Source of the DNA: a bacterium
GTDB lineage: Bacteria; Electryoneota; RPQS01
Length of the DNA: 64,000 nt
Assembly (NCBI GenBank): GCA_023382385.1
Contig: JAHDVH010000002.1
Span: forward strand, 448,219 to 512,218
Reading direction: 5' to 3'
This document shows, in pieces, positions 38,555 to 44,413 of the stretch; position 1 is the first letter of the stretch; every line of letters begins with the position of its first letter. The notes under the pieces are model-generated. The model was not told where the DNA came from. It ran no database searches and saw nothing but the letters and a program-made list of their open reading frames with translations. Position numbers and translations under genes: made by a program.

Positions 38555-38583
38555 TTGCTCAAAATTCGGTTCTGTAGTATATT
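38555..38583 (+). promoter_or_regulatory. Promoter of the glyoxalase-family gene
   Basis: TTGCTC (38555-38560), 17 bases, TATATT (38578-38583); start near 38590, about 30 bases before the ATG. Confidence 0.5.
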
Positions 38584-38620
38584 AATCTATCTGACCATCA
38601 CACTTGCCGGAGGATTACCC

Positions 38621-39010
38621 ATGGGTTGCTTGAAAGGTCTCCTCGAAGTTATTCTGTATGTTGAGAATATGCAGGAAATGGTGGAGTTTTACCGCGATGC
38701 CATGGGGCTTCGGGTCAGCTATCCTCCGAATGCCTCTGACTATCGCAAAGAGGAGTGGGTTGTCTTCAGCACAGGTCCGTGCAGCCTGTGCCTCCATTCC
38801 GGCGGCAAGCGGCGGATTGGTAAGGATGCTCCCTCTTTAGTATTTAGAGTCAATGACATAGAGGTCGCGCGGGATGAGCTGACGGAGCGGGGTGTCCCGA
38901 TGGGCGAGCCTCGTGTGGTTGCGCCGGAAATCTGGATTTGCGAGGGTGAGGACCCTGAGGGGAATCGATTTTCGATTGAATATACATCTAAAAAACAATC
39001 TGTTATGTAG
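38621..39010 (+). CDS. Glyoxalase/bleomycin-resistance (VOC) family protein
   Basis: 129 residues from the ATG at 38621, which has GGAGG 7 bases upstream; the longer frame from 38555 lies in the promoter. It shows the two beta-alpha-beta-beta-beta modules of the VOC fold (LLEVILYVENMQEMVEFYRD; SLVFRVNDIEVARDELTERG) and ends DPEGNRFSIEYTS. The substrate is unknown. It lies directly upstream of the arsR-arsM pair but is separated by a hairpin and a promoter. Confidence 0.85.
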   Translation: MGCLKGLLEVILYVENMQEMVEFYRDAMGLRVSYPPNASDYRKEEWVVFSTGPCSLCLHSGGKRRIGKDAPSLVFRVNDIEVARDELTERGVPMGEPRVVAPEIWICEGEDPEGNRFSIEYTSKKQSVM

Positions 39011-39020
39011 ATAGTTTTTT

Positions 39021-39049
39021 AAGCGGTTCGCAAACCGCTTGACTTTTTG
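39021..39049 (+). terminator. Hairpin between the VOC gene and arsR
   Basis: AAGCGGTT (39021-39028), CGCA, AACCGCTT (39033-39040), then GACTTTTTG. The -35 of arsR overlaps its right arm, so it may serve both as terminator and promoter boundary. Confidence 0.5.
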
Positions 39050-39074
39050 AAAATCATTTCGTAGTTTTACGAAA
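39039..39074 (+). promoter_or_regulatory. arsR promoter with overlapping palindromic operator
   Basis: TTGACT (39039-39044), 17 bases, TAGTTT (39062-39067). A perfect inverted repeat TTTCGTA (39057-39063) / TACGAAA (39068-39074) covers the -10. This is where an ArsR-family repressor should bind to block its own promoter. Confidence 0.65.
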
Positions 39075-39087
39075 GACGAAACAAGCT

Positions 39088-39414
39088 ATGCAAAACGCAC
39101 CAACATTTACGGTCCATCCACCGGATTCCTCTCGCGAGGATCAGGAACTTGCCAAGCTGGCACGGGCTTTAGGTCACCCGCATCGTGTGGCCATCATCCG
39201 CTTTCTGCTGCAGAGTCCCGGATGTATCGTGGGCGATATTGTGGAGCACTTGCCTGTGGCTCCTTCCACTGTGTCGCAACACCTGCGCAAGTTGAAAGAA
39301 GCGGGGTGGATTCACGGGGAGATTGACGGGCCGAAGATCTGCTACTGCATAGAGACGCGCGCGCTGCAGCGCTTCAAAAAGGTCTTTGACCTGTTGACGG
39401 AGTCGTGTTGTTAG
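39088..39414 (+). CDS. ArsR/SmtB family repressor
   Basis: 108 residues with the winged helix of ArsR repressors: LAKLARALGHPHRVAIIRFL, then VAPSTVSQHLRKLKEAGWI. It lacks the classical CVCDL metal site in the recognition helix. The only cysteines are C50 (SPGC), C90 (KICYC, two) and a C-terminal CC (107-108), which could form an As(III) site of the C-terminal type. It precedes arsM by about 100 bases. Confidence 0.9.
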   Translation: MQNAPTFTVHPPDSSREDQELAKLARALGHPHRVAIIRFLLQSPGCIVGDIVEHLPVAPSTVSQHLRKLKEAGWIHGEIDGPKICYCIETRALQRFKKVFDLLTESCC

Positions 39415-39511
39415 AGGATTCCTGACGTCAGACAAACGCGCTAATAGCGCATGGAAGACCTTGCCGGAGAGTCTTCCGGTAAGACATACGAGCAGAAACA
39501 GAAGGAAGGCT

Positions 39512-40330
39512 ATGGAAACTGAACTGAACATTCGCGAGGTTGTGCGCGAAAAGTACGGGCAGGCGGCACGAGGCGAGAGCTGTTGCGGAACCTCGGGCTG
39601 CTGCGGCGCAACCAATGTTGAAGATATTGCAGCTGCCATCGGCTACTCGGAGGAAGATCTGAAAGCGGTGCCGGACGGTGCGAATCTCGGGCTTGGCTGC
39701 GGTAACCCGTTGGAGTTTGCCGATGTGAAGCCGGGTGAGACAGTCTTGGACTTGGGCAGCGGAGCGGGCTTCGACGCCTTCCTTGCGGCACGTAAGGTGG
39801 GACCACTGGGCCGCGTCATCGGTGTGGATATGACTCCGGACATGCTGGCCAAAGCGCGTGCAAATGCAGAAAGCATTCAAGCCCGCAACGTCGAGTTTCG
39901 TGAAGGAATCATTGAGGATTTGCCGCTCAAGGATAACGCGGTGGATTTGGTGATTTCGAACTGCGTCATCAATCTTTCAACCGACAAGCCGAGAGTCTTC
40001 AACGAGATTGCACGAGTGCTGCGGCCCGGCGGACGCATGCTCGTCTCCGATCTTGTGCTCAATCGCCCGCTGTCGGAAGCGTTGAAGAACAACGTCGAAG
40101 CGTACGTGGGTTGTGTGGCGGGCGCGTCCCTGAAGGAAGACTATTTACGCTATGCACGCGAAGCCGGCTTGACGGACGTCGAAATTGTCAACGAAATTCA
40201 ATATGACGTGGGACTGTCCGAAATCGGCGAGGCGCTTCGCAGCGAAGCACTGGATGCCGTCGCTTCGGTGAAAGTGCGTGCCTTTAAGCCGAAGAGCGGA
40301 GCCTGCTGCGGGAGCGATTGCTGTCAATAA
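39512..40330 (+). CDS. arsM: Arsenite S-adenosylmethionine methyltransferase
   Basis: 272 residues from the ATG at 39512 (AAGGAAGG just upstream). It has the N-terminal Cys motif SCCGTSGCCG, SAM motif LDLGSGAGFDAF, GVDMTPDMLAKA, the SNCVINLSTDKPRVFNEI segment with the conserved Cys, and VGCVAGAS with another; the end is GACCGSDCCQ. These cysteines bind As(III) in ArsM. It methylates arsenite to di- or trimethyl forms. No arsenite pump or arsenate reductase is nearby, so methylation is the visible resistance route. Confidence 0.93.
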   Translation: METELNIREVVREKYGQAARGESCCGTSGCCGATNVEDIAAAIGYSEEDLKAVPDGANLGLGCGNPLEFADVKPGETVLDLGSGAGFDAFLAARKVGPLGRVIGVDMTPDMLAKARANAESIQARNVEFREGIIEDLPLKDNAVDLVISNCVINLSTDKPRVFNEIARVLRPGGRMLVSDLVLNRPLSEALKNNVEAYVGCVAGASLKEDYLRYAREAGLTDVEIVNEIQYDVGLSEIGEALRSEALDAVASVKVRAFKPKSGACCGSDCCQ

Positions 40331-41200: not shown

Positions 41201-41650
41201 ATGAAGTTTTTGTTCATTACGATTATTGGAGCTATGCTCATGTCCACGGCGTCTGCACAAATCAACTATGGCTGGGTGAAGGAACTGCCCGACACCGGCT
41301 ATGATGACGCCATCGCGCGCGTCACCGAACTGTTGAAGGAAGAAGGATTCGGAGTGCTTACGGAGATTGATGTTCAAAGCACGTTGAAGAAGAAGATCGA
41401 CATGGATTTCCGTAAGTACGTCATCCTCGGCGCGTGCAATCCGCATCTTGCCTCGCAGGCTCTGCTCGCGGAACCGCAAATAGGGTTGATGCTGCCCTGT
41501 AATGTCGTCGTGCAGGAGCGGGAAGGCGGCGGATCGATCGTGTCCATCATTGATCCCAAGGCGATGTTCCTTTTCATTGAGAACGAGAACCTGAAACCCG
41601 TCGCCGCGTCGGCCGAGGAAAAACTGCAGAACGTGCTGAAGAAGCTGTAG
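41201..41650 (+). CDS. Secreted DUF302 family protein
   Basis: 149 residues with a signal peptide (about 1-19, ending TASA) and a DUF302 domain: DDAIARVTELLKEEGFGVLT, the YVILGACNPHLASQAL strand with its conserved Cys and His, and LMLPCNVVVQE. The family is widespread and structurally a dimeric alpha/beta barrel; the function is unknown, sometimes linked with thiol or metal stress. The export signal is unusual for the family, most of which are cytoplasmic. AGAGGA lies 9 bases before the ATG. Confidence 0.88.
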   Translation: MKFLFITIIGAMLMSTASAQINYGWVKELPDTGYDDAIARVTELLKEEGFGVLTEIDVQSTLKKKIDMDFRKYVILGACNPHLASQALLAEPQIGLMLPCNVVVQEREGGGSIVSIIDPKAMFLFIENENLKPVAASAEEKLQNVLKKL

Positions 41651-41676: not shown

Positions 41677-41712
41677 AAGCGGGGCGCATTAAAGCGTCTC
41701 GCTTTCTGTTTG
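41677..41712 (+). terminator. Terminator after the DUF302 gene (also faces the T9SS pseudogene)
   Basis: AAGCGGGGCGC (41677-41687), loop ATTAAA, GCGTCTCGCTT (41694-41704) with two G-T pairs, then TCTGTTT. Confidence 0.65.
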
Positions 41713-41726
41713 TCTAAATAACGCTA

Positions 41727-43340
41727 TTAGCGCAGTAAGAGCAGTTTTGTCGTAGCGAGAGTTTTGCCGTGTGCGTGCAGCGCCGCGAAGTAGACGCCGC
41801 TGGCGAGCCGGTTCATGTCCAAACGGACGGAGCTTTTCGATCTTATATGTTCAGCGTGTATTCGCACAGCCTCGCGGCCCGTCACGTCATAGAGAACCAC
41901 GTCATAAGTCCCCGGCGTGCGAACGAATATTGACAGTTGCGCAACCGCATTGAACAGATTCGGAAACACTTCGAGTCGAAATTCGCTTGGCAAAATCGGC
42001 AGTATGTCGTTCACTAAAACTTCACTCGTATCCGCACTATCCGGCGAAGAAGTCAGCCAGGGGATGAACTCGACGCCGTTGCCGACCTCCGAACCCATGC
42101 CATTGGGATTCTACGCACTGTTGAATGGTCCCGTCGAATCTCCCCACCAATTCTCCCGCGCATCGAAATTGTTTCCCGAACCTCGAGCGGCCAGCCCTTG
42201 CGGCAGAAAGGAGTTGTTGCGCGCGATAACCGGATTCTGCGACCCGCCGCTTGCCAGAACATCCGGCAAATCTTGAGGCTGAAGGTTCAAAAACGTATTG
42301 CCGGTCAGCGTGCCCGCGCCATTCAGATAGATCCCCGTAGCCAGCGCATGATTCAACCCCAAGCAGTCTACGAACTCGTTGTCTTCGATGACTGCGAGAT
42401 TGCCTGACGTCTGGTTCATGCAATTGGCGTTGATCTGGATCATGCCGCTCTGATTCGCGGTCATTCGATTGTTTCTGAATACATTATTGCGAATCACAAT
42501 TGGCGGATCTTCGACTATCGAACAATTGACCCCGACTTCGATAACCCACATCGCGTTCTCAATTCCCTCGAAGACGTTGTTCCCAATTCTCATTCCACCC
42601 GTAGGAAAGGCAACCAAAACGGAAAATGCCGTCACGCTTGGGCCGAACCGGCAGTTGCGAATCGTGATGTCTTCACCAATCGCGTTCAAGAAATGACCGT
42701 ACTGGGCGTTACGTTTGAATTCGCAATCTTCAATTAGCGATCTGCTGTAGCCTGTGACCATTGCGTACGCGCTTGCTTCAAACATGCAACGATTCACTTG
42801 AATTCGACCGTTGCTTGAGGGCCGAATGGCATCTCGAACACAACCAAGAAAGCGGGAGTCGGTGACCTTGATGTCCATTCCACCTCGAATGGCTGCCGAC
42901 ACTGAATCAAATCGGCAATTTTCAATAAACAACGCGAATGCCGAGTTTTGAACTCCGCCCGATCTTGTTGCGAAACTTTGTCGAAGCTCAGGGCGGTTGA
43001 GGAAAGCAATGTTCTTGACAGTGGTCGTGTCCCCGCGCGCCTCAAACGTCGAGGGCGTATCCAGTCCTGCGGCGATCGGATCAAGCACGGTTCTTAACTC
43101 TTCGGTTGTGTCGGCCTGAAACTCTCCAAGCAGCGTGACCGAGTGCAGTGGACCAATTAAGAACTCATGGTAAGTTCCCGGTGATACAAGCACCGTGTCT
43201 CCGGCCGCCGTTGCGTCCAAGGCAGATTGAATGGTTGCGTACTCCGAAGGAACCGGCAGCACTGCGGCGCGCACGGCGACCGCAAGGCCACTCAATATCA
43301 ACCAAAGGAGTGTGGATTTGAGATTCCTTATGGAGTGCAT
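41727..43340 (-). pseudogene. Secreted right-handed beta-helix protein with T9SS tail, broken by an in-frame TAG
   Basis: From the ATG at 43340 a signal peptide (about residues 6-25, LKSTLLWLILSGLAVAVRA) leads into a parallel beta-helix: SEYATIQSALDATAAGDTVL, then repeated NCRF/NNVF/NTFL strands. It closes with NNFDARENWWGDSTGPFNSA and a TAG at 42113-42111. The same frame continues without a gap through NPNG, EVGNGVEFIPWLTSS (the usual end of such helices) and a T9SS domain to 41727. The CAG-to-TAG reading (SAQNPNG) is a likely single mutation. The sorting motif is also changed (FPNLFN instead of YPNPFN). Without the tail the product could not be sorted by T9SS. A sequencing error is the main alternative. 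Confidence 0.82.
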
Positions 43341-43842
43341 GAGCTGACTCCATAAGAAAGACACGCCCAGGCCTTGCAATCTGACGCGCATTCGTTCTCG
43401 TCGTCGCCGCATCCGGACGCGTTTGGGCACGGGATCAAGCAAACGTAAGGGACATAGGTCCTGTTTGAGTCCAGCAGGTACATCGATGGTCCCGAAGTGT
43501 CGCAGCCGCCACTCTCGCAATTGTTAGAGTGGTTGTTCGTGAGATAGTTCTCCGTTGCGCCGCTGAGAATAAGGAGGTTTGCGCAGGATTGACAGTCGGA
43601 GCACTCGCCGCCGCTGTAACAGATAGCCTCTGTCGAAAGTGTATATGTTCCATCGCACGCAACCGTGAATTCATGGCGGGTGCAATTTGTTGTCTAGCCC
43701 GGTGTGCACTCCGCCTCAGAACAACCAGTGTCACAAAAACACTGACAGTCTGTGCAGGCCACACTCGAGGTGTGCAAAAAACGATGCACAAAAAAACCGC
43801 AAGAATCGTCTTTGCGGTGAAGGTGAATGTTGCTTTGTTCAG
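43328..43842 (-). pseudogene. Decayed gene for a secreted cysteine-rich protein
   Basis: Not visible as one frame. A signal peptide is encoded from CTG 43842 (AAGGGAGG 5 bases upstream): LNKATFTFTAKTILAVFLC and on to TPRVWPA. A frame change near 43755 leads to CTDCQCFCDTGCSEAECTPG, a TAG at 43696-43694, then TTNCTRHEFTVACDGTYTLS. The frame stays open to TAA 43330-43328, passing CYSGGECSDCQSC, CESGGCDTS, CLIPCPNASGCGDDENEC and CKAWACLSYG. About 20 cysteines are in one frame. The TAA overlaps the beta-helix ATG by 13 bases, so the two genes once formed an operon. One frameshift, one stop and a missing ATG suggest true decay; the family is not recognised. Confidence 0.68.
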
Positions 43843-44008: not shown

Positions 44009-44413
44009 TCACTCCTTCCGAAAATACACCTCGAAAACTGTGCCTTGTTTCGCATACGTCACACGCAACGGCCACTCGGCGGTGTCCGGCAGCATGCGGA
44101 ATTTGCGAGAGTAACTATTCTGTTTCAATTCGCCGTTCACCAACTCTGTTGCAAACAGAAGCGAGTCCCCTCTCACGCTATAGTATCCCCCTTCCGTGTA
44201 GTCATCCCCCGTTTCCTGATCCGCGCGCGGCGCAAGCCGATAGAAGTAACGGTAGCTTGAGTCCGCGCGCAGATCGAGAGCCATGTGCTGCAGGTTGAGG
44301 AAGTTGATGGAGTTCGCGTTGGCATACCACGTGGCTGCAAGCGAAGGCGGCTGCTGAGTCGTCGCTCTTTGACACGCAAAGAAAAGCAGCGATATCAGAA
44401 GCACTCGCATCAT
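44009..44413 (-). CDS. Small lipoprotein, function unknown
   Basis: 134 residues with a lipoprotein signal (LLISLLFFAC, Cys about 14). The mature part is beta-rich (MALDLRADSSYRYFYRL, then GGYYSVRGDSLLFATELVNG), resembling the lipocalin-like domains of the DUF/META group, but I cannot name it. The ATG overlaps the stop of the multihaem gene (ATGA), so the pair is co-translated. Confidence 0.7.
   Translation of the reverse strand: MMRVLLISLLFFACQRATTQQPPSLAATWYANANSINFLNLQHMALDLRADSSYRYFYRLAPRADQETGDDYTEGGYYSVRGDSLLFATELVNGELKQNSYSRKFRMLPDTAEWPLRVTYAKQGTVFEVYFRKE

Follow-up and report, generated by a model that had tools for sequence, protein, structure and literature searches.

Why does a frame rich in cysteines run through positions 43328-43842 of this stretch (the window, 64,000 nucleotides in full) when the list of open reading frames holds no single gene that covers it? 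The original prediction answered that a secreted protein had recently been inactivated here. Could the lesions be errors of the assembly instead, or does the cell have a way to read across them? We favor inactivation, and extend it: at a probability of roughly 0.75, the locus is best explained as a recently inactivated unit of two genes, with a proposed attenuator, a proposed order of events and a proposed joint function of the two products. A decayed gene by itself is ordinary. The larger finding is the family to which it belongs, the T9SS partner of that family and an element embedded in the coding sequence of its leader.

An interrupted pair of genes

Each part of the predicted gene could be located on the minus strand. 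The frame of 121 codons, with 15 cysteines, occupies 43693-43331 and is directly preceded by an in-frame TAG; upstream of this stop, ACTDCQCFCDTGCSEAECTPG follows in the unchanged frame from 43759, and a signal peptide beginning LNKATFTFTAKTILAVFL lies in the neighboring frame with a CTG as its first codon. The distance from this CTG to the first mature cysteine codon (43756) is 86 nt, which gives a net shift of -1. The arrangement had been called too regular for chance, and it is: the 121 codons match four uninterrupted paralogs in the same genome, with E values of 2.8e-25, 6.7e-19, 1.8e-16 and 6.9e-10. At the site of the TAG, the paralogs have a sense codon.

The broken unit does not end where the prediction placed its boundary, but reaches into an adjoining beta-helix gene that is interrupted as well. 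The ATG of this second gene (43340-43338) overlaps the end of the cysteine-rich frame by 13 nt. Aligned with a paralog, its translation shares 238 of 546 residues, with one stop inside and a homologous frame on both sides of it; past the TAG, the frame continues into a T9SS tail. The window copy matches Beta_helix PF13229 (E 2.4e-11) and, just under the cut-off of 27 bits, Por_Secre_tail PF18962 (E 7.6e-6, 26.6 bits), whereas an intact partner scores 36.7 bits for PF18962 and also matches PF13229. A signal peptide (recognized by eye) and a C-terminal PF18962 sorting domain mark the second gene as coding for a T9SS substrate. Because it too carries an in-frame TAG, the whole two-gene unit, and not the cysteine-rich gene alone, appears to have decayed.

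The assembled unit thus holds a CTG where a start codon is expected, a net shift of -1 and one TAG in each gene, and homology to intact genes runs on past TAG and shift in the first gene and past the TAG in the second. CTG is able to initiate translation, albeit weakly, and its presence here may not be a lesion at all. The paralogs show AGGAGG, GGAGG or a similar motif at the place of the Shine-Dalgarno-like sequence, with about equal spacing, and most of the seven that were aligned have a TTGAC block at the place of the promoter-like site; sites of such quality number 4 in the stretch scanned, against 1.8 expected.

Features of the two-gene unit, with positions in the window
Feature	Position	Strand	Basis or detail
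Promoter-like TTGACT-17-TATATT	43936-43908	-	10 of 12 consensus positions match (consensus match alone); upstream of the pair
Shine-Dalgarno-like GGGAGG	43853-43848	-	5 nt before the CTG
CTG at start-codon position	43842-43840	-	alignment: ATG in 6 of 7 paralogs, GTG in 1 of 7
Signal-peptide coding part	43842-43757	-	frame next to that of the mature domain; homologous to signal peptides of intact paralogs
Terminator-like hairpin in the signal-peptide code	43818-43790	-	stem 43818-43812 / 43802-43796 (7 bp), 9-nt loop, T7 43796-43790
Interval holding the net -1 frameshift	43789-43757	-	frame listing and paralog alignment; assignable to the interval, not to an exact site
Mature cysteine-rich domain	43759-43331	-	interrupted by TAG 43696-43694; terminal TAA 43330-43328
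Premature TAG, cysteine-rich gene	43696-43694	-	sole internal stop in the 36 family matches
Partner gene, secreted right-handed beta-helix with T9SS tail	43340-41727	-	homology, Pfam
Premature TAG, beta-helix gene	42113-42111	-	sense codon here in both paralogs compared
T9SS sorting domain of the beta-helix gene, beyond its TAG	41969-41742	-	Pfam

A family of cysteine-rich proteins and its beta-helix partners

What kind of protein did the first gene encode? A search profile made from 17 intact members and the window fragment yielded 36 matches, the window copy included, in 6 of the 39 genomes of the phylum; with distant genomes added, the same 36 matches came from 6 of 242 genomes, and all 6 belong to one taxonomic family. 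Ten matches fall in the window's own 2.9-Mb genome (nine besides the window copy) and 13 in its congener G001; the remainder are spread over the other four genomes. Two weak matches, G001:C21 and G003:C227, were omitted from the tree of the cysteine-rich protein and from the hairpin scan, and are counted among the 35 other loci. Members have a signal peptide, about 165 aa and mostly 16-24 cysteines. No C-terminal sorting domain was found in the cysteine-rich protein, whose members end in CTP, CP or similar after the cysteine-rich domain. None of 18 members matched Pfam or NCBIfam at E 0.01, a sequence search of the PDB gave one chance-level match (E 0.44), and among the articles listed by our literature search there was no report of the family. 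To judge from the 242 genomes searched, these appear to be unnamed secreted proteins confined to one bacterial family.

The AlphaFold2 model of an intact paralog is an all-beta sandwich (pLDDT 84.5, pTM 0.76). Its strand arrangement is like that of an agarase CBM6, of the C-terminal domain of C. perfringens enterotoxin and of a collagenase PPC domain, and no sequence relation to these beta-sandwich domains was found. The best structural matches reach Z 7.6 (rmsd 2.9, 98 aligned), and the best Foldseek TMq is 0.44. A Z below 8 may reflect a common strand arrangement and would give no ground for a function; since it never reached 8, assignment to a known fold was set aside. So was a lipoprotein signal peptide, because the cysteine is not fixed at position +1 (FAQC in some copies, by eye), and so was a phage origin, as no relative was found in viral_contigs. 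Models of defense systems gave no match.

The original prediction had proposed to look for an intact homolog with the cysteine pattern upstream of a T9SS beta-helix, and such homologs exist: of the 35 other loci, 27 have a beta-helix homolog directly downstream. The exceptions are G000:C5, four loci on G008:C5, G008:C10 and the two weak matches. For 25 of the 27 pairs, a candidate start of the beta-helix gene falls within -20 to +12 nt of the stop of the cysteine-rich gene. At G008:C5:732544-734675, four cysteine-rich genes stand in tandem with no beta-helix directly downstream, a variant arrangement.

An intact partner is modeled as a right-handed beta-helix (pLDDT 84.7). Its fold aligns with the AlgE6 epimerase module at Z 31.2 (rmsd 3.0, 319 aligned), with similar Z values for phage tailspikes, and its tail resembles the CTDs of the T9SS substrates 8glk and 8gl6 (Foldseek). 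It matches both families found in T9SS-exported PF13229 and PF18962 proteins. What sets the present partner apart from known T9SS beta-helix proteins is that its gene forms an overlapping operon with that of a small cysteine-rich protein; in the window, its frame also contains a stop. The modeled fold suggests that the beta-helix acts on polysaccharides.

In its intact form, then, the first gene would encode an exported, probably disulfide-rich beta-sandwich protein of about 165 aa that lacks a T9SS tail, and the second gene, which overlaps the end of the first or abuts it, a secreted right-handed beta-helix that carries a T9SS sorting domain. The two products would most likely cooperate at the cell surface, the beta-helix being the body that T9SS exports and the small cysteine-rich protein accompanying it, either in the periplasm or by co-export. 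The accessible part of an article on the T9SS translocon (PMC10994853) says nothing about partners that lack a sorting domain. For research on T9SS cargo, so close a gene partnership offers a testable pair.

At two loci of the congener, G001:C8:26028 and G001:C16:121801, the cysteine-rich gene is intact and its beta-helix partner shifts frame near the T9SS tail; at G006:C74 the partner is cut short. Decay of the partner is therefore not unique to the window.

A terminator-like hairpin in the signal-peptide code

Within the coding sequence of the signal peptide lies a hairpin followed by a run of T residues. Is this a coincidence of codon choice? Hairpin and T-run are present in 12 of the 33 intact members examined, and these are all 12 members of the two closest clades; the window copy has them too. 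They were seen in none of the 21 more distant members, whose start codons were approximated near the profile match. Under stricter criteria, 10 of 11 leaders of the family have the hairpin as compared with 1 of 174 control ORFs. When the genes are recoded at random with synonymous codons, it is retained in 0.25-10.6% of trials per gene. Predicted energies range from -5.7 to -13.6 kcal/mol, the window copy standing at -9.7.

Across 11 intact members of the two close clades, the leader is conserved at the nucleotide level from the Shine-Dalgarno sequence to about codon 20. Identical residues are encoded by identical codons 77% of the time (n = 663), whereas the codon usage of long ORFs would predict 33%; for the mature part the value is 41% (n = 2947) against 43% expected, that is, saturated. 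Signal peptides of the beta-helix partners show no such conservation, with a codon identity of 29% (46/161). Ungapped identity is 0.95 in the 3' arm, 0.93 in the T-run, 0.75 in the 5' arm and 0.49 in the loop, and drops to 0.28-0.31 in the region from -100 to -21 upstream. A covariance model run on 11 genomes of the family recovers the 12 sites from which it was built at E 3e-12 or better and nothing else that convinces; the next sites have E values of 0.012 in G002, 0.059 in G005 and 0.093 for the divergent G000:C1:843344.

The leaders of the two close clades show what one looks for in an attenuator: a G+C-rich hairpin with a T-run directly behind it, at a conserved position near the beginning of the transcript. 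The promoter-like site, the early terminator-like hairpin and the overlapping second gene together suggest that transcription of the operon depends on translation of the signal peptide. If the first gene is translated, the ribosome would keep the hairpin open and both genes would be made; if its translation fails, transcription would stop early at the hairpin and U-run.

Might the leader be no regulator at all, its DNA kept alike by gene conversion or by another constraint at the RNA level? We take this as a serious contender at somewhat less than even odds. Codons 2-8, which lie outside the stem, are conserved too (codon identity 0.69), so that another nucleotide-level constraint may act, and covariation adds little: 96.4% of cells are paired as compared with 95.4% in shuffles, with a single double change, and 72 of 500 shuffles reach the score. 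Yet the conserved block is short and sharply bounded, falling from its peak in the 3' arm to the low upstream values given above; the stem survives the double change, in G001:C11, and it is present in a different form in G000:C1:843344.

A close likeness for attenuation is the pil1 locus of Streptococcus gallolyticus, where, in the accessible part of the report, translation across a 5' stem-loop terminator permits transcription of a surface-protein operon (PMC3894217); we propose the same for the present leader hairpin. At pil1 a separate leader peptide with GCAGA repeats precedes the terminator (PMC3894217), whereas here the hairpin forms part of the code for the signal peptide in the first structural gene, and repeats of the GCAGA type were not seen. 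It is established that there are gene families with 5' terminators, that RNA ends occur within ORFs and that ribosomes can keep terminator hairpins from forming (PMC2965389, PMC7815308, PMC5021804), and translation generally affects such hairpins (PMC5021804); the accessible parts of these three articles describe no paralogous family that keeps a terminator in its signal-peptide code. Likewise, among the articles listed by our literature search there was no report of a terminator inside a signal-peptide code. In this leader element, conserved down to the codon, a terminator-like RNA signal is superimposed on coding sequence. If the hairpin terminates transcription, it would be a compact device that ties an operon to translation of its signal peptide, and one that gene finders and terminator predictors would both be prone to overlook.

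History of the locus and its surroundings

When did the unit decay, and from what source did it come? In the tree of the cysteine-rich protein (34 rows), the window copy stands beside G001:C9:26348 with support 82/80, and in that of the beta-helix (28 rows) it stands beside the G001:C9 partner with support 81/63. The G001:C9 pair thus appears, with modest support, to be the sister of the window pair. Both cysteine-rich copies lack the same two cysteines, at the NCHT and TTNC positions, which suggests that these form one disulfide and were lost together. The two loci are not syntenic: the window's own genome has no pair at the G001:C9 site, and the congener has none at the site syntenic to the window, where the orthologs of 44009-44413 and 41201-41650 converge about 72 bp apart. 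From such comparisons, pairs seem to have been gained and lost often. The convergent gene 41201-41650 has a terminator-like hairpin at 41677-41704 (+), and a similar one occupies the congener's short intergenic gap; the pair therefore sits between this terminator and gene 44009-44413.

How far constraint has been relaxed was assessed by a leave-one-out comparison with the seven intact members of the closest clade. The window copy of the cysteine-rich protein breaks 10% of otherwise invariant positions, as against 0-7.7% in intact copies, and that of the beta-helix breaks 7%, as against 4.2-13.5%. Because conserved sites are altered about as often as in intact copies, relaxation appears slight at most and the decay recent. 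Together with the intact homologs, this supports the original claim of a recent inactivation.

Near-normal constraint would also fit a live gene, however, and the unit may be alive behind sequencing or assembly errors: conserved positions are kept nearly as in intact copies, and every one of the lesions is single-base in kind. We consider this unlikely. Two stops, a frameshift and a CTG are concentrated in one 2.1-kb unit and strike both genes of one operon, whereas 13 flanking genes conserved in the congener each align in one frame, uninterrupted. Nor is a collapse of paralogs a likely source, as the copies are only about 50% identical.

The unit could also be alive if the cell recoded it: the T7 run (U UUU UUG) beside the hairpin might be a slippage site that joins the two frames, and TAG might be read through. 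Sites with a hairpin and U-run are known to promote transcriptional slippage, the slippery run is situated between the signal-peptide and mature frames, and the step from one frame to the other is exactly -1. For the T-run, we also considered the replication-slippage switch described in the accessible part of a study of bifidobacterial pili (PMC9187656) as a model. We nevertheless hold recoding to be very improbable. Two separate TAGs would both need to be read through, and TAG is the most used stop, ending 37 of 93 ORFs of at least 200 aa in the DNA of the window's own genome that was examined. By the same count, and because the next in-frame stop after TAG is as distant as after other stops, a change of the genetic code was rejected; TAG is an ordinary stop here. 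The 64-kb window yielded no tRNA genes. A programmed shift as the normal mode of the family was likewise rejected, since intact copies have a single frame, need no shift, and do not conserve other frames as open past the T-run.

For the favored reading, inactivation of the pair, we propose an order of events. In the window copy, the first lesion would have been at the start codon, weakened or lost, or else the -1 shift; this lesion would have silenced the second gene through the overlap, and possibly through the attenuator, and both genes would then have acquired their TAGs. Silencing of both genes by one loss of start or frame would explain why there are stops in both. A broader picture, which we put forward tentatively and would not rate at even odds, is that of a multi-copy surface system in which the cysteine-rich beta-sandwich is usually coupled to a T9SS beta-helix, a subset of copies has a translation-sensitive terminator in the signal-peptide code, and the window copy records silencing followed by joint decay.

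Two further observations concern the neighborhood. A gene at 46275-44410 (-), absent like the broken pair from the syntenic region of the congener, encodes a secreted protein of 621 aa that has a T9SS tail and several CxxCH motifs, by eye a multihaem-like pattern. At 38555-40330 (+), and conserved in the congener, there are a glyoxalase-like gene, an ArsR-like regulator and a methyltransferase with the motif CCGTSGCCG, which by eye look like an arsenic methylation cluster.
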